A stretch of DNA of 64,000 nucleotides, from assembly GCA_026874595.1 (NCBI GenBank), contig CM049314.1, forward strand, positions 26,919,729 to 26,983,728, given 5' to 3'. The notes below the pieces were generated by a model. That model was given only the letters and a program-made list of their open reading frames with translations. It was not told the DNA's origin and did no database searches. Within the stretch, counting starts at the first letter, position 1; the number at the start of each line of letters is the position of its first letter. Of this stretch, positions 1-24,500 are shown piece after piece. Source of the stretch: Sipunculus nudus (lineage: Eukaryota > Annelida > Sipuncula > Golfingiida > Sipunculidae). Position numbers and translations under genes: made by a program.

Positions 1-505
1 ATGTAATGAGAGTTACAGAGTAGTTTAATTAGCTTCCACCTGACGGACTAGTTTTGGCATCAAGCATTAAAGCTGAAAACTCAAAGAGATTAACAGGCTG
101 CTGCCAAACTACTGTTGTTAATTGTACCGTTTTGGCAACTTCCTTTCTCCCATGGTGCTATAGATGGGTTCTTTTTTTTCTTCTTATCCTTCTTACTTAT
201 ATACAAACTGCTGATCTAAGATGTGGTCAGTTGTTTAAAAACTGATTAAATTTTCAGGCTCTGCTTGAAAACGAAATGATTCCATCATGAAATGCTAACG
301 ATAATTCAAAACGCAAAATCTACAATATTAAGATAACTTTACTGAGCTGCCGAAAATAATGTCCGAAATGCCAGCGCCATGTGGGCCGTTATGTCAATTA
401 TTAGTTGGTCGTCTTAAACCTACACTCACCAGGAACTGATATGCGACAGATTACATGACAAACGTAAAGTACGGTTAACTCGAGGACGAGAGAACAGTTA
501 CTTAC

Positions 506-3500
506 ATGGAAGTGGGAATCTGAACCATGGGGCGTCAACCACAGACTGGGTCTTCAGGTCTGTCCTTACCGCTCGTTTCCAGTTCTCGTCTCCTTCTAGA
601 GCGCCGCCTACCGTCAATAGGAAGCACAAGAACCAGACGAGTAAAACCGCAATAAGAAGCTGTCAAGAAAGAAAGAAAAAATATATCATGAATAATTTGT
701 TTCAGGACGAGCCTGCACAGAACGATATTTTTTTGTCTTCTGAAATTTTATCAAAGCTGTTAAAATACGGTGTCAAGTATGTATAAAAAAAGAAACAATG
801 CATAAGATGATCAATAATCTCATTGTGCGCATGCCTTTCAATACATTTTTATTGTAATCTCTACTTTGAGAGTGGTTCCAATTCTTTTTATGAAACTGTT
901 ATTTATAACCGTGACATGTTATTTAGTTACCAAGACTTAAATTCTTACCGGAAACAACCCAAACGGTCGTGTCCACATGATGCCACAGTTCCGCTTCCGG
1001 AAGTTAAAGGAGGGTGTCGGGACGCTGATCTCCGTCATGTATTGTCCGAGTATGCTGGCCAGGACAGTGGTTCTGTAATAAAACACCGATGTATTCCTGG
1101 CAATAGTTATAGAGAGCGACTTGGGCTGGAATATTTTCTATATCTCTTTAACTATTTTTATTTCAAGAATGTAGAATATGGTGGGTGCTTATACGTACGT
1201 AATAGCGATTGGCCAGCTGGATCCGGACATGTTGGCACCGATATTCGCTAGGGGCAGCCCCAGCATTGTAATGACGACAGCGACCACTAGGTGGCTTACG
1301 TACGGCAGGACTAGTCCAAGGATGCCGGAGTAACCGAGCACTATGTTGACTACAGCGGCACCTATTAGCGCTCCTTGTGCCTGATGGGTTACAGAGAAGA
1401 ACAAATATAACTCCTTCATGTTGTACCACTTGTTACTGATGTTCTTAAGCAGTTGGGTCAAAATAGATTAAACGCTATACAAAATAACAACACAAGTATA
1501 ATTTCTAACCTCATTCAGCTTGGGGCGCCACTGGTCTGTTGCATTGCATGTACTGTTAACACCAGCTGTAATGTTACCGTTTGGAACTGAAAATACATAT
1601 ATGGGATAAAAACCTTTTTTAAACTTTAAAAGTCTTAAATGGAAACAATACCACCGCATAATTCGCCTGTTGTAAGTCCAATGATGACTGACCTGATCTA
1701 ATTTATATTTTGCAGAGAATTATAAATAGTGAGTTTAATCGAAATCCATCAGATTTCTGGCCACACTGCCGCTAAATCTGATGACTTCTTATCTGAAAGG
1801 TTATGTATAGATTTTGAAGTGAATCGAAATTATTTGAGATATTTTATTGCCATATTAAGAGTGACTTTCATGAAAATCCACCAAATTGCTGGTAATTTAT
1901 TTTAGCGACCCCAAAGGTCAGCGGACGATCGGAATGATGGACATTGAGCCCGCAGAATGGACGGGCGCTGCCAATAACCATAATAGGACCTTTGTACAGA
2001 AAGGCGGTACGAACCAACTTTATTCGTTTATCGTATGGTTTAGTAACATTTAAAGAAAAGTATCCACAAACTCCTAAAAAGGGCTGCAGCATATACGTTG
2101 CCTTATATATCAATTAAAAAAAAACATACGCAGACTGCTAATCAACGTGGGATCTACAACTATTTCAGTAACCCTTATAAGTGGACATCCATATTAAGCC
2201 TCGATATGTGAGTCAGTTATTTCCAGAGCAATATTACAAAATGCGAGTTATTGCTGATGGATGCAGCCGTGTTTATGAAATATAAGTAAAATACTTATGA
2301 AAGAAAACTCGTATTAACTTGTATGTGTCTAATATCCAATTTCATCTGTACGCAGACGACACCCAGATTTACCTGGCCTTTTGTTTCAAAACTGATCCTT
2401 CTATTCACTCAGCTATGGCTTCAGTTCAGTTGTGTATCTCTGAAGTTGGTGAATAGATGGTGAGAAATAAACTGAACCTAGACAGAACTGGAAGTTAGTG
2501 AATAGTGGTGAGAAATAAACTGAAGGGAAACGGTGACAAGACGGAACTTTTGATCCTCACGGCTTCCAGGCTAAGACCCAGAGTAGAGCTCACTACTATA
2601 AACATTAGTGGTTGCTCTATCACAGCTAGTCCAGCCATGAGGAATCTTGGTAGCTGGTTCGACCAGGCAGCCACCATGGGGCAGCATGTACAGTTTGTGT
2701 AAAAATCCAGCTACTTCCATCTGCACAACATTGCTGCCATTAGACACATGCTCACCAGAGAAGCAACTGAAAAACACATGGACGCCTTTAATACATCTAG
2801 GCTTGACAACATTACCTCGCTCTTGATAAATATCCCGGCATCAGTTACGAACACGCTTCAGCGTGTGCTCAACACGGCAGCCAGTATTGTAGTAAGGCAA
2901 TATAACGAGATAGCATCTCAGACATCCTACAGCAACTCCACTGGCTGCCTGTGCCACAGAGAATAAGTTTCAAAGTGCTATGTCTCATACACGGATGTGT
3001 TTATGGTAGTGCTCCAAGCTTACTTGCTAAGCCTTTTACGGCCATACCAGCCATGACGTAGTTTACGCTCTAGTGACCAGCATCTTCTGTGTCAACCAGC
3101 TGTTCATACGAGGACTTTTTCGCTCTTTTTCAGTGACTGCGCCAGAATTATAGAGAGAGTTACCCCCAAAACACGCATGTGTGAGAATTATATGACAGTT
3201 TCAAAAGACAAAAAAATCTGTTTCGGGCTGCATTTTTTAAATTTATAGTTTTGCTCTTTATAAACATTACCTAGGCCTACATTTAGTTATATTTATAATG
3301 GGTACATCATCTTTCAGCTGCAATTTATAGCATATCCTACCATCATATTTTTAATTATTTATCTCGAACCAAATAGTTGTTATAGCTTTCTTTACTTTTT
3401 CTTAAATTCATATCATTATATGTTTTATCACACGCAACTTAGCAGCACATCCTAGTGACAGTACTCTACCACACGGAAGCGTTTATTATAATGTACAATG

Positions 3501-5410
3501 GTTTCATCCAGTTTGTACTATAATACATTTTCATTGAAACAGTGTTAAAGTAGCTCCCACTCTCCAGGTCAGATGTCGATTCTCATCTGTACCTGAAGAG
3601 TGAGAGTGACAGAAGGTAAGACCAAAAATTTGCACTTAGAGAGTGCAGACCTCCGCCAAGGCAGCTCATTAAACCCACATGATACTTAAAGAATACAGCG
3701 TTTTTCCACTAATATATCCTGGATCAAGACAGTGATCTGGATAAAACCCAACATTTAACCAATTATTCTTCGTATTCTTGCCGAGCTATCCTGAAAAGTT
3801 TATCAAAATCCATTCATAAATTTTGATCAAATCAGCCAACGGACAAACAAACAGATAGACAGACAAACCAACGCCGCCGAAAACCCAAGCCGCCTGGTAA
3901 CAGTTATTAGTTAAATACAGAGGCAGATCCAGGATTTGGGAGAGGGGAGGGTCCAATCCAGGAGGACTGAAAAGAATGACTTAAATAACGTCTTCTGGTC
4001 AAGAAGGGGGGGGGGGGGCCGCGCCTTATACATTTTTTTAACACCTATGAAAAAGTTGTTGCAGCTCAAAATTGGGGTAGTTGCGTACCCCTTGGACCCC
4101 TTCCCCGGATCCGTAACTTAAATTCAAGGTGTAGATTACACAAAAAGGCTTTAGCAGCGTGGATGTAAAAATGTGATAACATTACACATGAATAATTCCG
4201 CATGGATGCATCAATGGGTAAAGCACGTCTTAGCACTTTTTTTAGTAAGAAGTAGAATAGTCGTGCACACTAATGAGAGAATGGACAATTAAAATATTTA
4301 CCTGGACAGTCCCACTTGGAAATAGAAGACATGGCAATGAGCGGCAGGATATAGGAGGCCGATGTCCCTTGAACAATTGGAAGCCTAATAATAATAATAA
4401 TAACAATAATGACAATAATAATTATAATTATAATGTTAATTGTTTTATAATAACGATAAATGAAACTAAACATCCTAACCCAATTTTTTACTCCAGACAA
4501 ATATTTTGGGAACAATTAACAATATAATTATCGGAATGATAGAAATTTGTGCAGAATATTAGTGAAAAAAAAAACATTTTTTTACCTGTTCCCAAGCGTT
4601 GTCTGTAAAAGAGTGGCGAAGCCGGCAACCAACAAAATGGTACTGATCAACTGACCACGTGACAGAACGTCTCTCATACCCACGGCGTCGGCTATGACGG
4701 CAGCTGTAGCGATCTCGGATACCGACATGACGAGGAAATGCTTCAGGTTCAAAATATAAAAAAAAACATTCATTTTAAAAGATAAAACATAAAAAAATAA
4801 TATTAATTGGATTTCCTTTGTCAGTGAACATAGTAAATAAAAGGTGTTCTCAAGTTTCGATTTGTCATGTTTGCTGAAGCCATAACATGGGTTGAACCAT
4901 TTCGATGTTTTTTTCATTATTTTGGCATATCGGTATTCAACGCAGTGAGACACACCATGCTTTTACTGTTAAACCATATATTATATATAATATATCACCT
5001 CTCAGTGAGATCACCTCTCAGGCTTCCACACAATAATAATATCAAGTAATCCATGAACGTCAGCAACTTATACGTAAACTTTCCCATACAGACTACATAA
5101 TAAATCATTTAATATACCATTTATGTATGGATTATTCATAATCATGGACTTGCACTACCAGATCACACCCACATTAGTCGTCAATCATCATCAGCATTAA
5201 GCCGGTGAGCATTATGAACTTCAAAATATTAATGTGTCAGAGGACATGAACTAAACATAACTGGGACACTCATAACCTAGCATTATGGGTAAAATGACAA
5301 TGACACACTCGGAACCTGGGTCAACAGGGTACAAATTCAGAGTAGCGAATCACATATCCATCAATCGATACCATGCATTATGGTCATTTGTAATTGTTTA
5401 ACTAACATAA

Positions 5411-5464
<54 letters not shown>

Positions 5465-8400
5465 ATTCAGATAATATCGTGGGCTTAAAATTTCGTGTTT
5501 TTTTGTACAAAACGCATATCGTGGGGTATTTGAATTCGTGGAAAGACCATGAATATTATAGAAAATCTTGGTTATTAATATCTTAATGTGCGCAAGGAAG
5601 ATGAGAACATATGTACACAGACAGTACACCGGTACCTCGACTCAGATGCTTATCACACGGTGCGCCTGTACCGCGGTCAATTAGGTCAGTGTTGAGCAAA
5701 CAAGGTTCACCCGACCCTAACAAAGGAGTTAACCAGCCGTAACCGACACGTGCCGGACAATACATCGGCTGTTAGTTGTAACACACGATACATCACCTAT
5801 TAGTTATAACACCCGATCCCTCCACGTTCACAGAAAAGTTAACCCTCACTTGATCGGAGGAAAAATAAAACGGGACCGTCCACTTGAACGTTTTTACCTT
5901 TTTTAATCATGGCGGTAGTCACATGTGGCACCTGTAAATCTTAGACGGGGCCGTGGGACATACAAGAGACAAGACTCGTTCGGCATTCAACGTGTCAACT
6001 AAAAAAAAAAAAAAAGGAACAGAAATCGGCATAATGGGTCGACTAGACAGGAATTTTTCTCTTCTGAAAATTTGAGGGGCATAATTTGCATTTGTTTTCT
6101 GCGACACTTTCTTTTTAAAAATTTATGTACAACTATCGGCAATATTCGGAGGAAATACCGTCTATCATATTAATGGCTCATTTTTATGCACGCAACTGCA
6201 GTCGGCAATATTCGGAATAAGTTCTAATTACTTTCGCGTCCCCGCCGTAATGCAAATGAGCCAATAAGGAGCGTAAGTCTCGTTTTATCTCTATTGAAAG
6301 AAGGTTGAAAAAAGCCGTGCCTCGGTAGCTGTGGTTACGAACATTGGAACAAGTGTACCGTTCTTGTCGTGTCAGAACTACCGATTTGAGCGATAGAAAT
6401 GTGGCATTGTTCTTGAATATTTTACCCGAAACGTTGAAAAGAGGAAATGTGGGGATTTGTTTTCTAGTTTAAAGTAAAGTTTGATATTGTTTTATTGTGA
6501 ACATTTCAGGGGGCCGTGTTTGTGCGATATTGGGGGAAATAATGGAATTGACAACATAATATTTATAAATCACGTATTTTTTTTAGTATTACAGGAAATG
6601 CAATGCAGTACATTTATTATATGTATCAATGGCAATCATAAAATAGTAATAAACCATTGTTGTACCTTTATTAAAAAATTCAGCCAGCGATAATAACTAT
6701 ATATAGATGAAGTCGACCACCAGCTGCTGTTAAGGTAATTTCTGATCTTATGATTTTTTTATCGTGGGAATCATGAATTCGTGGATTAACTTTGTCCATG
6801 AAAACCACGAAAATAAAATCCAAACTAATATTTCTGAATCTACAGTATATATATATATATATATATGGGGCACTTGGGGAACATGTGAGAGGCTCTCATA
6901 AACTGTATCAAATGAGCGTGTTGCAAGATGGATGGTATTTGTGTTCCTGGCGGGCAGCAATACCACTCTCAGATCAAAGACGCCTCAGTTTTCAGTGGAT
7001 CCCGCCACCTCACCGTTACTGTCTTAAGCAATCAGTCAGCTAACATTAAACATCAAACATACCGTCTGTGGAGCCACAGATATTAGCCAGGTAAACCAAG
7101 TGCATAAAGGCGAGATGGAATTGTGTACGGATTCTACGGGCCTCGTCGGCAAGAACAGCATGGTTGAAAGGCAGGACATAATTAGTTTTTTTTTAAGGTT
7201 ATATAATTGGTTAGGGAATATAGGTAATGCCGTGGTTCCCTTGCCAAATTTTTCTTTACTTTAGTCGACCGCGACATCTCAGCAACGACCCGCCGAATGT
7301 TTTAATAATCGGAACGTTAATCATGCAGTTCCTATATGAGTAGTGATACAAGGTTTGAAAGGAAAGGGGGCGGGGGCGGCGGGTGACGTGATCAAGATCA
7401 TGCGTCCGTGTTTCCGCAGCTGATTATTTTGTCTTGGTGTCTTTAATATAGTGGGATCGGGTGAGAGGTTTGACCAATCTAGGCCAGATATAACCTATGC
7501 AACAACATAAATCACCTTTTTATAATCTAATTGTTTTTATTAGAATGTTCCAATTCTTTTATGCATCCGGACAGATGCGGATTCAGGATTTTATAAAAGG
7601 GGCTAAATATATAGTGAGGCTGCGAAGCGTCAGAGGCTAGGAGCAAAGTCGGGGGGGGGGGGGGTAAACTTTTAGAACATCTATCCTTCTATGGTGCAGT
7701 CTGGGGAAGTTTCCGAATTGTATTTCAGTATTAATCGCAATTTGTTCTAATAAAGATTTTTAGGTCGGAAAGGGTTCGGTCATCCTCTTAATCCGCCCCT
7801 ATGTTAGTCAGCATATCCATTAACAAACCACATAACCTGATACCAGGACAGACCTCTAAGTTTTTTTTAGCTTATATCACATACCTGTAGACCGAGAAGC
7901 ACGCCCAGGTACTAGGGAGGGGTGTCATCAATTGTATACAACATTAATTAGTGAATTATGGAACTGTCTCTCCGAGACAGAGTATTTAGAACTGGAACGA
8001 TTGCTTAGATTTTGCCTTAAAGTTTCTCAGGGTTTTCGTAAACGCACACGTTCGGTATGTGTAACCAGTATGCTCGGGTTTTTTAGTATGCGAGGATTTA
8101 TAGACATTTCTAAACTTTTATTCTTGCGCCGGTTATGTTGTTTACCAATAGGAAATCCATGTTAGACCATTTTCTTTGCAAGACTTTATCAAGTCAGTAT
8201 TTGCAAATGGTCAACAAGTAAGGGTTTTGCTAAGGACATTATTGATATCCTTAAGAAACACAACTTAATGTACACGTTAGAGCAGTTCCTCAGTTATGGA
8301 CTGTTTCCTGGAAAACAAGTCTGGAAAAAGGTTGTTATGCAAGCGATAGCGTCGAATGAACAACTAATTTTCGAAGAAAATGCTGCCGGGGATGCCAACC

Positions 8401-9520
8401 TTACAAATTCTAATAAAGTCATGCCGTTTTGTTGTATCAAACCATCTCCTTTGTGGAGAGCAGCCATGTACTTTCCGCGTTCCTTGTTCGTATTCATGTT
8501 TTTGGCTCGACTGCTAGTAGATCCATGCCTACGTTATACTGATAATGAACTTTGTATACAATGTGGCTGCATGGTCTCAGACAAAGTAGAACACTGTGTA
8601 TTTGACTGTAATGCCTTAAATGGCAAGAGACAAAAAATCTGGACCACGATGCGTTTGAACATGCAAGATTTTTTAATTGATTATTTAGTTTTAGATCGAT
8701 CTATTGATCGAGGCCGTGTTATAAAGCCCTATGCCAGATGAATTATTTCTTGGGGACGAGGAATATTTTACATTTATATGTATATATATGGGCTAAGTTC
8801 ATATATTTTTCAGTTCAAGTTACCTCATGAAGCATGCATGCTTGCTTGCATTTAGTGTCATTTAATACATATACCAACTGTTTAATTATGCTTTATTGGG
8901 TGCGCTGGAATATGTGCTAACATATGGCTGTCACTGTATATAAATTTATTATTATAACTATAATGAAGCGTGTTTCTAGATAATATTTTTATACAATTCT
9001 CAGTTCAATTCCTTTTGTTTAATTCCTTGTGTTACGTTTGGTAATTCTTTATCTTCTTATATGTCGCACTTTGTATCTTTGTATATTACTGAATTTTCTG
9101 CTTTTACGCATATATATATTGATTGTATATCTTCATCATTGGAGGAAATAAAGACTATCAATCAATCAATTAATAGCAATTTGTTCTATTAAAGATTTTT
9201 AGGTCGGAAACGGGTTCGGTCATCCTCTAAATCCGCCCCTATGTTAGTCAGCATACCCATTAACAAACCACACAACCTGATACCAGGAGAGACCTCTAAG
9301 TTTTTTTTTAGCTTATATCACATACCTGTAGACCGAGAAGCACGCCAAGGTACCAGGGAGGGGTGTCATCAATTGTATACAACATCTGTTCCGCGGTTAC
9401 CACGTCCGTATCTTTCAGCTGATCAGTCACCTCACCCATACTGCTCAGTTTCATCTCCCTGGTCTTGCGACCAGCGTCCATTTTCTCATCGCTCTGTCTT
9501 GTATCCGACGCGGCGGCCAT
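506..9520 (-). CDS. SLC23-like: SLC23-family nucleobase/ascorbate transporter SLC23-a (5' part, 3' exons off window)
   Basis: Polytopic plasma-membrane permease of the nucleobase-ascorbate transporter (NAT/SLC23) family; vertebrate members carry vitamin C or nucleobases with Na+. Exons read on the minus strand: 9520-9326, 4740-4586, 4384-4302, 1586-1510, 1380-1199, 1072-949, 659-506. All borders are GT/AG and the phases join into one frame. The start is the ATG at 9520, giving a hydrophilic N-terminus of about 45 residues. Then comes the family motif TIDDTPPWYLGVLLGLQ, joining across the first intron to HFLVMSV, which recreates the TM1 QH motif. Later exons give GMRDVLSRGQ, LLQTTLGNRLPIVQG, an extracellular loop ending in DQWRPKLNE, the TM block QGALIGAAVVN, and LLIAVLLVWFLCFLLTVGGA. 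The last visible exon ends in phase 1 at the position matching human SLC23A1 before CQWG; the TM8 signature and C-terminus lie left of the window. Intron 1 (4.6 kb) holds a LINE, a pseudo-exon and an inverted-repeat element. Family is secure; substrate is unknown. Confidence 0.9.
2337..3200 (+). mobile_element. Decayed LINE fragment (CR1/L2/jockey-type RT)
   Basis: The frame shows the RT catalytic motif LYADDTQIYL near 2345. It continues in stop-broken frames with KTELLILT, SITASPAMRNLG, a degenerate HLHNIAAIRH, TSRLDNITSLL and LQRVLNTAA, then remnants of the region after RT. These are standard landmarks of CR1/L2-like ORF2. Several stops, frameshifts and a local duplication of about 50 bp (around 2445-2525) show it is dead. 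It lies upstream of the 1510-1586 exon in an SLC23-a intron, antisense to the gene. Confidence 0.8.
3635..3900. repeat. Interspersed repeat with CCTCCGCCAAGG end
   Basis: Contains CCTCCGCCAAGG, an ATCAAAATCCATTCATAA block and a run of CAGACAGA-type words. These are shared loosely with copies near 39.9, 44.6 and 59.4 kb and resemble RTE-type 3' ends seen in many invertebrates. Non-coding. Confidence 0.45.
3920..4118. mobile_element. G-rich MITE-like element, copy 1
   Basis: Starts with a GCAGATCCAGGATTT-type end, has a central run of G at about 4007-4018, and ends CCCCGGATCCGTAACT. Its ends and its GGTCCAA block match the copies at 16.8 and 28.2 kb. Confidence 0.6.
5414..5458. repeat. (TA)n microsatellite
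   Basis: Uninterrupted TA dinucleotide tract abutting the inverted-repeat element; it gives spurious IYIYIY reading frames on both strands. Confidence 0.95.
5459..6845. mobile_element. Candidate inverted-repeat element inserted in a (TA)n tract
   Basis: The left end ACTGTAGATTCAGA (5459 on) recurs as its reverse complement at the right end (about 6831-6844). Both ends are bounded on the outside by (TA)n. The inverted similarity continues inward for roughly 60-100 bp, with TTTCGTG and GAATTCGTGG-type blocks on both arms. No transposase-like ORF lies between, so it looks like a non-autonomous element, or two inverted copies of a smaller repeat. Confidence 0.5.
7730..7944. repeat. Left copy of a roughly 215-bp target-site duplication
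   Basis: Nearly identical to 9169-9385, with roughly ten scattered differences. It spans about 155 bp of intron, the splice donor and 60 bp of coding exon. The two copies directly bracket the LINE, with nothing else between. Confidence 0.85.
7885..7944 (-). pseudogene. Dead duplicate of the 3' part of the first SLC23-a coding exon
   Basis: Matches 9326-9385 over 60 bp, including the GT donor, but the Trp codon of DDTPPWYL has become TAG. It begins abruptly at the ATG of MLYTIDD, exactly where the LINE insertion starts. It is the left copy of the target duplication flanking the LINE, so it has no upstream exon part and is presumably spliced out within intron 1. Confidence 0.85.
7945..9168 (+). 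mobile_element. 5'-truncated non-LTR retrotransposon (LINE) 3' end
   Basis: Only the end of the RT-containing ORF and the 3' UTR remain, antisense to the host gene. Two overlapping reading frames (7945-8165 and 8268-8741) carry the end of ORF2, including FLRRLCCLPIG and a C-terminal CIQCGCMV...EHCVFDC arrangement. That C-x2-C...H-x4-C pattern is the zinc-knuckle-like C-terminal motif of many LINE ORF2 proteins. A frameshift lies between the two frames. About 430 bp of 3' UTR follows, ending in an (ATCA)n tail at 9156-9168. The clade cannot be fixed without the RT core. Confidence 0.75.
9169..9385. repeat. Right copy of a roughly 215-bp target-site duplication
   Basis: This copy is continuous with the 5' half of the SLC23-a coding exon (9386-9520) and keeps an open frame and functional-looking donor. 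It is therefore the copy used by the gene. Confidence 0.85.
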
Positions 9521-10550
9521 TTTCGTTTGACTGGGTTTATTACACCCCGTTTATCCTGACAGTTAAGACGATGCTTCGCCGGTAGTGTTTGGTCTCGTGT
9601 GTAGATTTTTTTCACAAAAAGGTCCTTTATGTCCGTTATCACAAGTATCTGAGTACTTGACCCATTTTCTCGTCTCTGTTAAGAATGTTTTACACACAGG
9701 GTGGCCTTGAGAGCAATTGTGTTGTAGAGATCCTATGAAACAAATTGACAACGTACGTTGTTATATGCATTCGCGCCCATCGTGCGATCAATTAATTCAA
9801 ATGAAGTTAAACCAATTTACCTTTGTACTTTCAGGATATAGGGTTATACCCGATGAAATACGTTACTGTAATCGAGAGGGGTACTTCTTGTGACGGGCTC
9901 AATATGTGACACCAGTCATCCGCTGTGCCAACATTAACGTGGCTGAGGTTCCAATGTCAGTACGTGAGTGGAAACATGAGAGTTTTGTATGATGAAATGA
10001 GACCTCCCTGAGCATAGTAAAATATGGCAGATAATAAGCTAGCGTGTCGAGATGACTCGAATTAGAACGGCATGGTGACGGACTTAAAACCAAGCTATCC
10101 ACTTGTCTTTTTAGGAGAATATATGTGATTGTTAGCTCACTCTGCGTAGGTTCTTAATAACTCCCTTTGATGAAGTTTATCTAAAAGCTGCTAGTAAACC
10201 ACGGTACATGGGTTCTTGCTTACATACAGAAAGCATCTCACTGAACGGCGTTGCTTTACATAGGGGTGCTAGACGGAGGGACGGACGGACAGACAGACAT
10301 CGGCGACCTAGGGTACAAGCTCATCAGGCATTTGGCCGGATAAGCTGAATATAACACAAAAAAAAAACAATTTGATATACCCGGTTAGCCAAATGATATT
10401 AAAACAAAACAACAAACCTATATTACAATAAGATGTACAGTCATACTAACGTAAATAATAATAAGCTTGTGTGAAAAAAAAGAAATAAAATTACCGTAAC
10501 CAGTACCGTAGCCTCTTTAGGGGAAAGGGGGGGGGGGGATGTCGAAGCAT

Positions 10551-18548: not shown

Positions 18549-21500
18549 TATTTATTTAAATGTTCAGTTATACATTAACGCGTGCTTTCATGCATTTGCA
18601 AACTTCAGATGTGATCTTTCAACGGTTGATGCAGTTATGTAATTATGCGTTGACGCACTCAGCCATGGTCAGGAGGAAATGTACGGGGATCAGGAACACA
18701 ATACACTAAATCAATACAATTTCACAGTATAACAACAGTACAACAGCAAATCAATACAGGTATATAAATATAGTGTACAGTGCTGGGATACCCCCACTGT
18801 CACTGCGACAACAAGTCCTTTATGACGTACAACCCAGATGAACAGTTCACATAAATCAGTACACATCAGGGTTCACACATGGGCCTGCCCGGCTCGGCCA
18901 GGCGAGAAAGCCCCAGACTAGCATGACGCTGTGTTTACACGTGGACCGCACCCGGCCAGCTAGAACAAGGAACGCTGTAGTAAAGCAACGCAAGGGCTTG
19001 AGCAAAACACGAATCAGAATGTCAACAGCGCACAATAAAAGAGACATATGCAACAGCGTATATATCCTGCAGTCAATTTAAGTGCTAACTATCTGGATGT
19101 ATGCCTGTTTGTCAAGTATCTGCAATACTGTCTGTGTATTTAATTGGCTATCTGATTAAATTGTTAAAGCCTGTTTTCCTACCAACTTACCTAGCGGCCT
19201 AGTTATTTAAGTGTCCTGTTTATTTACGTATCTATCTGGCTGCCTGTCTGTCGTTGATAGATGTCAAGATGTCAAAATGATTCCTATCAACTTACCTTTG
19301 ACCAAGATCGCTGAAAGAAACGTCTGTAGGTGTGTTTGCTCCTCCGGTGACTCGACGCTGACTAGCCCCGCACCCTCCTGGACACAATCTTCTTTAGCAT
19401 CTGACCAGCTGACATTTTTAGTTAACAGCTTATAGCAAGAGGGATAGAACTGACCGTTGGATTTCGGTAAGCCGAAGGGCGAGCAGAAACTAAAAGCATT
19501 ACTGGATGCTGCAATATAAATTTTTATGCGAAAAGGTTATGCTGAAAAAAATAAATAAATTTAGAAAAGATAATAATTATTCAATGTATTATTAATGTAA
19601 ACAATGTGGTTGAAAACATAACAAACATCTCCCATAACAGGTGGAGCGCGATTTGTATCTGCCCAGTCTCACGGAACCTAATATCATCAGATCACGTATG
19701 AATGATGAACATAAATTTTGTAATGGAGATAAAAAAAAATCAGATTCTGTATCACTAGGCAGCGGTAAATGTATAGGGGAATTAATAAAGAAGTCAGTTT
19801 TTTTATAACAAATAATTATAATTTAATCTTAAATCAATCCAAACATTACAATACACTAAATCAATACAATTTCACAGTATAACAACAGTACAACAGCAAA
19901 TCAATACAGGTATAAATGAAGTGTACTGTACCTGGCTACAACCACTGTCACAGCGACAACAATTCCTTTAAAACGTACAAACCATATGAACAGTTCACAT
20001 AAATCTTCTCATAGAATAACAGTCCAGTACATTTACAAATTCAATACTTTGTAATCCAAAAATGAAGTTCTTGTTATAATTCCGAAAGCAAACTGAAGAC
20101 TATAAAATAAGAATTTAGAAAAAAATCTATAACTGCCGCACTTATCGGAAAAGGTCCAAAACTGGCTTTAATTGCTTCTGTGTCCGCTGGAATATTTCTC
20201 TTCTCTTCCCGGCTCTAAAACACAACCCCTTATTTATAACTTCTCACCTCCAGCCGAGAACTTTCCATTTCTGGAACAATTCAAAGAACCTAATAGTACA
20301 CACGTTACAGGAAACATCTAGAACAACGAATGCTGTGTTTCTACATATCAGGATTCACAAGTGGGCATGCCCGGCTCGGCCAGGAGAGAAAGCCCCAGAC
20401 AACATGAACGCTGTGTTTACACGTGGGCCGCTCCCGGCCAGCTAGAACAAGGAACGCTGTAGTATGGCAACGCCATGGCCTGAGCCAAACACGAATCAGA
20501 ATGTCAACAACGCACAAGAAAAGAGACATGTCAACAGCTCACAATGAAACAAACATCAGTAACACTCCCCCCCCCCTGTAAGAAAAAAAGAAAGTTTTCC
20601 CGGAAATCTTTCTTTTTGCGATCACAATCACTAACTCTTTAAAATGTCTCAAGAACATCTTATTTACAACATCACATAAACATGTCGTTTACAACATTTC
20701 ATAAACATATCGATAAGCAATCAGCAAGGACATTGTCTTTCCCTTTAATGTGTCTGATCTCAAGGTTGTTATCCTGTAAAAACAAACTCCACCTCAACAA
20801 TCTTTGATTTTTACACTTCAACTTGTTCATGAATGTGAGGGGATTGTGATCACTGAAGACAATGATTGGCTTGACTGATGAATGAACATAAACTTCAAAA
20901 TGTTGCAATGCCAAAATCAAAGCCAAACATTCCTTTTCAATAGTGGAGTAGTTTTTCTGGTTTGCATTAAACTTTCTTGAAAAATAACAAATTGGATGAT
21001 CTATGCCATTACTGCTTACTTGTAACAACACAGCACCAGCACCAGTATCACTAGCATCTAAAGCAAACTTAGTCAAAGGTTCAGCTACAGCAGCAAAATT
21101 TGGACAAAACTTCCTTTAATGTCCAACCATACCAAGAAAACGCATAAATTGCATTTTGTTTTCTGGTCTAGTAAATGCAGAAAAAGCACATATTTTAGCA
21201 TCAACTGGTTTTAATTGACCCTGCCCTACAATATGACACCAAAAATGGTACTTGTGCATGACAAACTCATATTTTACTTAGTTGATGGTCAGACGTGCTT
21301 CGCTGAGTTTTTCGAAGAAGTCACAAAGAATTTGCAGATGTTTCTCCCAGGTGTCGCTGTACACGATGAGGTCATCAATGCGTCGCAGCCTTGAATTTCT
21401 TTAACAACCATATGGATGAGCCGCTGGAACGTGGCTGGCGAGTTATTCATGCCAAACGGCATAACTTTATACTGGCATAGTCCTTGCGGCGTCACAAATG

Positions 21501-24500
21501 CGGACACTTCTTTCGCTCGTTCTGTCAGCGGTGCTTGCCAGAATCCTTTTAGCAAGTCAAACTTGGAGACATATCGGGAGCTACCGACTCTATCAATACA
21601 ATAATCGATCCTCGGAATCGGGAACGTTTCAGTCTTGGTGACAGAGTTCAGTTTTCGATAATGTGTGCACATACGGTAACTTCCATCAGGTTTTGGCACA
21701 AGAATACATGGTGAACTCAAGTTACTGGTACTAGGTTCAATAAAATCATTGTCCAGCAAATATTGAATCTCATCCTGTAGATACTTTTGCTTTTTTTCTG
21801 GATTCAGTCTATAAAGATGCTACTTGACTACGCTTTCCTCGTCAACATCAACGTCATTGCACAATATGTTAGTTCGCTTTGGAATGTCACTTAACAAATG
21901 TTCATAATTCCGCAGCAGGTTCTTGAGGTCTTGTTGTTTTGCGGTAAGTTGTGAGAGTTTGGGATCCAGGTTGTTAAGCACATCTGGTTTTGTTAGTGGT
22001 CCTGTTCCAGACTGAAAGTCTACATCACACTTACAATCAGTATCTACTTTAACTGGGTCAGGGTCAGTTTTTTCACAATTAACAGCAGTAATATTATGTA
22101 CAAGATCTGATGGCCTATTTCTGTCATAATATGGTTTCAACATGTTAACATGGCAGAGTTGTTTCTTCTTATGCCTATCTTGTGTTAACAGTATGTAATT
22201 TAAATCACTGACTTTCTTGTCAACAATGTAAGGACCTAAATACCTAGCTTGCAAAGGTCTGCCAGGGCCAGGTAGTAAGGCAAGGACCTATTCACCAGGC
22301 TCAAACTCCCTACTTATAGTGTGCTTGTCATACTTTGTTTTCATTTTACTTTGTGCAGATTTAGGATTTGACTTTGCAATCTCACAAGCATTGTGTAGTT
22401 CAGTGCGAAAGTCTGAGACATACTGCAATAAACTAAGAGAATCAGGATTTTCTTATAAGAGTTTATCTTTTAGCAGTTTTAATGGACCGCGAACAGAGTG
22501 TCCAAAAACTAGTTCAAACGGAATGAAACCCAAGGACTCTTAAAATGATTCTATGACAGCAAACAGCAACAGGTTGATTCGTTCCTCCCAGTCTTTCTAT
22601 GTGTCATAACAATAAGTCCTAATCATATTTTATAATGTCTGGTGAAAACGCTCGAGGGCGCCCTGACTTTAAGGATGGTATGGCGAAGAGCTGTACTGTT
22701 TTATACCTAGCTCAAGCATAACTTGCTGGAATAAGCCAGAAATTAAATTAGACCCTTAGTCAGACTGGACGGATTTTGGTGATCCGAAAGTTGTAGAAAG
22801 TTTTATTTATACCTAAATGGCCAGATAAAGGAGCCTCATGTGCCATGCTTAGAATTTCATTGCGATATATTTGGCATTACTATTAGATGTTTGATAGCCC
22901 ACTCAACATCAACGCATACATCAGGTGGTCACATAAGCACTCCATTTATAACATAGAAACAAACTTGGTTCTGTGACAGTTCATCTATCGAAACTGCCCT
23001 GGGAAACAAACGAGTCACTCGTGACTCCCAGAGTGTTATTATTTGGACCATTAATCTCATGTGTGTTTTTCTTGGCCATAGATCTAGTTACAGCACATGA
23101 AGGATACAAACCAGGAATTTCCTGACTTTCAGGATCAGTGTCCTTATCAAGTGACGGCTTTTCTGTCACTATTGGTACAGACTGTACTTTGTCATCTGCA
23201 ACATTATTGCCTAGTAGCAACTGAATTCCCTTAAAAGGTAAAGTAATTCTTATGCCCACAGTAATGTTCCCAGAAATCAAATCTGACTTTAAATGTATAC
23301 TGTGAAACGGAACTGAAGTGTGCTTGTCTGAAAACACACCATTAACAAGTGCATGTGCACGGGTAAAGGACCTATTAGAAAATGGCAAAGTGTTTGCTAA
23401 CAAGAGAGTTTGGCCTGAACCGTTGTCCCTCAAAATTCGAATAGGTTAAGAATCTGAAAATCACTTGAAAGTAATACAAAACCATCATGTATGAATGGCT
23501 CAATTAACTCCATTTCAGAGCCAGGAGAGGAATCTACAACCTCAATTTCATAAAACAAAGAACTGACACTGATAGTGTCAGTCATAATCTCTTTTTCAGA
23601 GACATTAAAGGAATCTACATCCTTTTTACCATCAAACTCCTCATTGGAGTAAACAGAGGAATTTTCCTCAGCACAAACAAACTTCTGTTTGTCATAAGAG
23701 GACCTGGCCTCATTTGAAATACTCTCCTAAGTGTCTTAAAAGGACTTAGCCTTATTTAAAGGATACTCCTCGCCGGAGTCTTGAAAGGACCTAGCCTTAT
23801 TAAGTTCCTGGCAGGGATCAACTGAGGTTTTTACCCCGCGAGTTACGGATTCCTCTTTAGATTCAGACGGCACGTTGGTCTCATCAATCTCTTTTTTAAA
23901 GGAGTTGTTCCCCATTATTTACATGAAAAGAGTTTGTCTCTTGTACTATACTTTGCATAGATTTTGAAACAAAACCAGAAGGTTTACCCTTTGGTTTATT
24001 TGCAAGTTTACAGAAGTCAGATCTAGATGATCTTCCTTTCTGCAGTAATTACAGATTTTCTTCGAAAAGTACTGGCCTTGGTTGGATTCAGACACAGTGG
24101 ACGTGGACTGAGGTGTAGCAATGGACTTTGCTGAACTATCAGGACTACTAGTACTGCGTGACTGCGCTTTAAACTTCTTTTGACGATACTGATTTACATT
24201 CTTGTTTGTGAATGACTGGTTTGATTGCTAGTAAAGGACAATTGGTGTGTTAATGAATAATCATAAGCTAATTGAGCAGCAATGTCAAGTGTTTCAGGAC
24301 TTTTCTCATCCAGAAACGTTTTAACAACTGCGTTAATGCAGCGCTAAAATTCTTGAAACAAGATCAACTGGCCTAAATTGTCATAATCTTTTATTACATT
24401 TTTAGAACTACACCAGCGCTGTTGGTCTGTTGTTTGGCTTTTTCCAATTTCTGTATTCCTGGCGGTAAGCCTCCGGAACTAACTCATAACCTTGTAGGAT

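Follow-up and report, generated by a model that had tools for sequence, protein, structure and literature searches.

A 64-kb stretch of the Sipunculus nudus genome (hereafter the window; C9:26919729–26983728 of a 1.43-Gb assembly) carries a long interspersed nuclear element (LINE) in an SLC23 gene, with direct repeats of ∼215 bp meeting its two ends. Among the eleven closely related copies of this LINE that we compared across the genome, six are bracketed in the same way by long direct repeats, ranging from 195 to ∼5515 bp; these six lie at unrelated positions in contigs C1, C5, C9 and C13. The repeats are best explained, with a probability that we put at about three in four, as target-site duplications (TSDs) left by target-primed insertion of an apurinic-endonuclease (APE) type LINE whose second-strand nick is loosely placed.

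Repeat pair and LINE in the window

Positions 7730–7944 (215 bp) and 9169–9385 (217 bp) are direct copies of each other, with 207 matches, eight substitutions and two one-base gaps, and their similarity ends sharply at both ends, where the LINE ends lie. With the low-complexity filter on, this is the only pair of direct repeats in the window that is at least 100 bp long, at least 90% identical and at least 500 bp apart; unfiltered and with a threshold of at least 60 bp, more pairs appear at 54.9–59.8 kb. The insert between the copies (7945–9168, plus strand) corresponds to the final ∼1.2 kb of a ∼6.1-kb LINE. Homology to sibling copies begins at 7951, leaving six extra bases, TAATTA (7945–7950, plus strand), between the left duplication and the LINE proper (7951–9168, plus strand). 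The latter, delimited by sibling comparison, comprises the end of the second open reading frame (ORF2; in two frames, broken), the 3′ untranslated region and an (AATC)n tail. The border between this tail and the right duplication, near 9168, is ambiguous by a few bases, and ATTAAT is common to both junctions. The original prediction, made from the window sequence alone, had described copies of about 215 bp bracketing a 5′-truncated 1.2-kb LINE; the alignment confirms long direct repeats meeting both LINE ends, and the truncation is borne out by siblings that continue further upstream.

Duplication lengths across the LINE family

Sibling copies were sought in the genome using a 1.9-kb region and the last 427 bp as queries; the best 40 of 95 and the best 40 of 64 candidates, respectively, were scored, and the counts are lower bounds. 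At least ten other copies match the window LINE at 93–95% over the shared part, followed by older, shorter or fragmentary matches. The main set consists of the window copy and ten siblings, all at 93% or more over the shared 1.2 kb, which are spread over contigs C1, C5, C9, C11, C13 and C16 and have differing flanks. Twenty places of 10 kb each were examined (the ten siblings and ten lesser copies, L019–L028), and seven of these stretches were extended.

The full length of the element is ∼6.1 kb, with L012 and L015 having the same 5′ end. In L012, ORF2 is open for 1167 codons and encodes an apurinic-type endonuclease (Exo_endo_phos, PF03372, E = 2.9e-8) and a reverse transcriptase (RVT_1, PF00078, E = 1.5e-23), with a stop in the upstream frame; in L015 the upstream frame is open for 720 codons and ORF2 is broken. 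These two domains, together with variable 5′ ends and a common (AATC)n 3′ end, identify the family as an APE-type LINE. A TSD of the usual length, tens of base pairs at most, is present in just two of the 11 copies, this being a usual and not a defining feature of such elements.

The six long duplications measure 195 bp in L017, 215/217 bp in the window, 1158 bp in the full-length copy L015, 1240 bp in L011, 1433 bp with three mismatches in L013 (a locus at which tandem repeats are present) and, in L018 at C9:7.85 Mb, ∼5515 bp on the left and 5681 bp on the right. In all six the end of the repeat and the start of sibling homology are offset by only −3 to +6 bp. In L013 the border is set by sibling homology, which assigns to the LINE the 12 bp at the end of the left copy and so shortens the repeat from an initial 1445 bp. 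The original prediction had proposed measuring other copies and regarded relatives with only short duplications as telling against it; instead, duplications of at least 195 bp occur in 6/11 copies and exceed 1 kb in 4/11, so that the window is not unique.

Among the remaining siblings, L010 has a short TSD of 24–28 bp and L014 an ambiguous one of ∼4–8 bp, while none was found for L009, L012 and L016. Genome searches with 600–800 bases of the 3′ side of these last three copies gave no near-identical second copy (the L012 query started ∼44 bp and the L016 query ∼2.9 kb past the LINE), and self-comparison of L016 with 5.4 kb of its 5′ flank revealed no repeat. Elsewhere the flanks searched were mostly 3–6 kb, from which longer repeats could escape. 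The spread within the family, from ∼4–8 to ∼5515 bp, covers the broad range from tens of base pairs to kilobases seen in human cells deficient in nucleotide excision repair (NER). Within the lesser copies, L022 has a 43-bp repeat of 79% identity meeting both LINE ends and L025 may have one of ∼29 bp, judged by eye; no repeat meeting the LINE ends was found in the others. An identical 313-bp pair at L023 (4022–4334 and 6372–6684, ∼2 kb apart) was not counted, as it does not reach the ends of the LINE and has other local repeats around it. At L016, a satellite with a 64-bp unit (7179–9622) starts at the 3′ end of the LINE and makes up most of the DNA between the LINE and the search query; its unit is absent from the 5.4 kb upstream.

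Ages of the repeats and of the LINE copies

If duplication and insertion were one event, the two repeats should differ by about twice the private change of the LINE that they flank (compared over its last 1.2 kb). Private change and repeat divergence are 0 and 0% for L011, 0.17 and 0.60% for L015, 0.25 and 0.21% for L013, 0.66 and 2.18% for L018, 1.08 and 4.62% for L017, and 2.65 and 3.72% for the window. Their rank correlation is 0.886 (n = 6), a value reached by 12 of 720 permutations, and tests of the twofold ratio gave p = 0.23 for L018 and p = 0.47 for the window. L011 is the clearest case: 1240 of 1240 repeat bases are identical, and over the 1.2 kb compared its LINE does not differ from two siblings. 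The long repeats abut the LINE at both ends, are found at independent sites and rise in age with the LINE copies that they flank; because of this last relation, the duplication and the insertion appear, from the sequences, to have been a single event. This supports the original proposal that one insertion took place with an exceptionally long stagger, well beyond what is usual for LINEs. The L018 repeats, 2.18% apart, had been considered as allelic and older than their LINE, a view that was dropped since the private substitutions of the LINE fit one event.

A second LINE as control

L011 has inserted within another LINE, here named Jk, which we take to be jockey-like and which is 27% identical to the window family over 486 columns. 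The best 40 of 2746 genome candidates for Jk were scored and six copies were taken (list ranks 2–6 and 8), two at 86–87% being passed over; the five with a 5′ end inside the retrieved stretch form the control. Exact junction duplications are found in L042 (11–13 bp) and L045 (10–12 bp), and an ambiguous one of a few base pairs in L044; L043 has a match of 11 bp that lies away from the 5′ junction, and L046 has none. Long duplications were found in 0/5, with flanks of ∼1.2 kb on the 3′ side and 1.3–2.9 kb on the 5′ side, from which very long ones could escape in L043, L044 and L046. An 82% pair at L042 (757–1329 and 3568–4144) was rejected as a long TSD: its left copy comes within 1 bp of the LINE, whereas its right copy starts 238 bp beyond it. 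Given the exact junction match, we read L042 as a short duplication inside an older repeat. The difference between the window family and Jk is suggestive only. Just upstream of the L011 duplication, Jk contains ∼275-bp tandem repeats (3520–4323 in LINE orientation), perhaps 5′ monomers.

Proposed mechanism and alternatives

A first nick would prime cDNA synthesis at the 3′ junction, as in target-primed reverse transcription by an apurinic-endonuclease LINE, and a second-strand nick would set the length of the TSD. In the window family the second nick would be poorly tied to the first, often falling hundreds to thousands of bases off, and fill-in would then leave a copy of everything between the nicks on either side of the LINE. 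The outcome would be a doubling of ∼217 bp of SLC23 exon, donor and intron in the window and of ∼5.5 kb with a receptor-like gene at C9:7.85 Mb.

Several results weigh against this account. Five of the 11 copies are without long repeats (short in L010 and L014, none found in L009, L012 and L016), as are three short fragments, L023, L025 and L028, which at 98, 96 and 95% identity to L012 over 126–300 bp may be as young as the eleven; counting them, the tally becomes 6/14. The L017 repeats have diverged beyond twice the private change of their LINE (p = 0.08). The control is small and its flanks are limited, and Fisher tests give p = 0.093 for 6/11 versus 0/5 and p = 0.128 for 6/14 versus 0/5. 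Kilobases of DNA between the nicks must also unwind, for which simple nicking gives no account.

No such unwinding would be needed if the free end of the LINE cDNA joined a break further along the sister chromatid, which would give the same final structure of a LINE flanked by a tandem duplication; the accessible part of PMC7058536 makes this proposal for a tumour in which an L1 sits where the two copies of a 22.6-Mb tandem duplication join. We consider such bridging unlikely here: the longest repeat found, in flanks mostly of 3–6 kb, is ∼5.5 kb, repeats of 24–217 bp occur beside it, and there is no evident reason for bridging to be confined to short distances. Because these short repeats and the kilobase ones share one family, we consider it likelier that the length is set by a second nick further along the same chromatid than by sister-chromatid joining. 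Loose cutting might instead be a trait of the host that affects its every LINE, and a defect in host repair does yield the same length range in NER-deficient human cells (PMC5223499, in the text available). The exact 10–13 bp TSDs in two of the five Jk copies, with long ones in none, speak against a host-wide trait, although the difference is not significant, and we regard it as a minority possibility. The cause would then lie in the element and not in the host, a step that depends on the small Jk control and is the weakest link in the argument.

Two further explanations deny that the LINE made the repeats. Had it inserted later at the junctions of pre-existing tandem duplications, the ATTAAT shared by the window junctions would permit a short TSD at such a junction, and L013 does have tandem repeats; this would nevertheless require insertion exactly at the junction at six sites and predicts repeats older than the LINE, whereas the ages track each other and the L011 repeats are identical, which makes it the least credible of the alternatives. 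Scarcely more plausible is an assembly artefact in which haplotypes with and without the LINE were placed in tandem. The L018 repeats, 2.18% different with 19 gaps, do look allele-like, but their divergence is compatible with one event, no N occurs in the window or in the examined stretches, and repeats of ∼200 bp at 4–5% divergence, the graded ages and the fit at both LINE ends suit an artefact poorly.

Relation to known systems

The closest parallel to a loosely placed second nick is that of L1 in NER-deficient (XPA, XPC and XPD) human cells, where the median TSD of 1495 bp, with extremes of 5 bp and 5.3 kb, falls to 14 bp after complementation, and for which a more random, distant second nick has been proposed; tables in the same source list TSDs of up to 6765 (PMC5223499, as far as its available text goes). 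There too an APE-type LINE produces TSDs of a few base pairs to more than 5 kb in one population of insertions, some of which include deletions, although those insertions were engineered in cultured cells, whereas the present ones are natural germ-line copies of another LINE, some diverged with age. According to the same partial source, L1 TSDs longer than 100 bp never exceed 10% in HeLa cells; against that ceiling the binomial probability is 0.0003 for 6/11 and 0.0015 for 6/14, a germ-line sample being set against cell culture. Extremely long and short TSDs and deletions are likewise mixed among 5′-truncated L1 copies in HeLa cells (Gilbert et al., as described in the accessible part of PMC2912911), but full-length L1 there has 10–17 bp, in contrast to the 1158 bp of full-length L015. 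The tumour case resembles the present ones in having a single LINE at a tandem-duplication junction and differs in being somatic and of megabase scale (PMC7058536, in part). More generally, L1 TSDs can reach several hundred nucleotides (excerpts of PMC1291365). Two surveys were limited to TSDs of 5–30 bp (PMC2912911) or 10–49 bp (PMC13295347), as stated in the available portions, and kilobase cases therefore could not have shown up there.

The R9 element of rotifer ribosomal DNA (rDNA) is reportedly flanked by a TSD of 126 bp, at one rDNA site and of fixed length. It is, like the window LINE, a natural LINE with a long duplication, which a title in the reference list of PMC2861651 calls an `exceptionally long target site duplication'. 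If the single site and single length reported for R9 are right, the window family is of a different kind, its eleven copies lying at scattered sites with differing flanks and variable TSD lengths.

In the sources as available, then, long TSDs of LINEs have been described as rare events in cultured cells, from cells deficient in repair, from tumours and, with one unvarying length, from a rotifer rDNA element. The open-licence literature matches listed include no natural LINE family that makes kilobase TSDs, nor one like the present family, with long TSDs in about half of its young copies, lengths of up to 5.5 kb and a gene enclosed. We lean slightly towards the view that a natural LINE lineage has lost tight control of the second cut, so that its everyday insertions in the germ line frequently double flanking stretches of hundreds to thousands of bases and generate tandem duplications of exons or whole genes, which surveys restricted to tens of base pairs would score as lacking a TSD. 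Placement of the second-strand cut is an unsettled step of retrotransposition, and a natural family that records many such cuts, beside a LINE with TSDs of 10–13 bp, would allow one to ask whether element or host controls it. Such a family would also provide a direct path by which a single LINE insertion duplicates a gene in tandem, an open receptor-like frame here lying on either side.

Genes within the duplications

The L018 repeat contains a stop-to-stop frame of 387 codons (381 from the first Met) that is open in both copies, which differ at 11 of 1161 bases (eight amino-acid changing and three silent). Its product resembles a rhodopsin-type receptor (PF00001, E = 3.8e-4), with a score of 20.5 bits, below the Pfam cut-off of 30.5. 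Of 13 matches in the genome, only the two repeat copies are near-identical over the whole frame; nine others are at 67–84% and two are ∼100-bp pieces at 93–96% within the same two repeats. Judged from sequence, the locus appears to be a tandem duplication of a complete receptor-like gene by one LINE insertion. This LINE also contains a 660-bp insertion (L018 4561–5444; C9:7853660–7854543) with a 112-bp identical duplication, outside the eleven copies. It consists of a LINE tail of less than 100 bp and ∼585 bp matching the 3′ flank of that same LINE, and has the appearance of a 3′ transduction that returned to the source element or to one of its siblings.

In the window, each repeat copy holds 60 bp of an SLC23 coding exon on the minus strand, its splice donor and ∼155 bp of intron. 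The exon end reads MLYTIDDTPPWYLGVLLGLQ on the minus strand, followed by GTATGTG. Self-alignment and the open frame show the exon end to be intact in the right copy (9169–9385), which lies in a single open frame with the 5′ part of the exon (9308–9550; MAAASDTRQ...AEQ upstream). The left copy (7730–7944), delineated by self-alignment and sequence reading, retains the donor, has TAG in place of the Trp codon and lacks the exon 5′ part; on both copies the original prediction holds. The last exon base before the donor is 9326 in the right copy and 7885 in the left. In its present form the exon is provisionally placed at 9326–9550 (minus strand) and is presumably the first coding exon, with the ATG of MAAASDTRQ inside. 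Further coding pieces lie at lower coordinates in frames 4585–4962 and 4273–4515; the former (HFLVMSVSE...LGNR, minus strand), placed by its frame and the match of the joined pieces, is presumed to be the next coding piece, with exon borders drawn by eye. Three joined exon pieces match the permease family PF00860 (E = 1.3e-13).

In describing the exon as hit and the insertion as neutralised by its own duplication, the original prediction over-read the sequence. Priming took place at a nick in the intron, at the 3′ junction (7729/7730), and the second nick is in the exon; any duplication necessarily keeps one unbroken copy next to each flank. The exon therefore needs no rescue, and only a target-site deletion would have broken it. 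The net change to SLC23 is an intron that gained the LINE and one spare ∼215-bp copy of the exon end and donor.

Other observations

At L020, a ∼58-bp tandem array (1–4785) upstream of an older relative of the LINE resembles positions 2389–2463 of the L012 LINE, as if grown from a LINE piece. Eight pieces of the window family lie at ∼12.3-kb spacing in C12:1700152–1786830, apparently a tandem array containing a LINE fragment. Within the window itself, a reverse-transcriptase fragment on the minus strand (21292–21819; PF00078, E = 5.2e-20) probably belongs to another retroelement.

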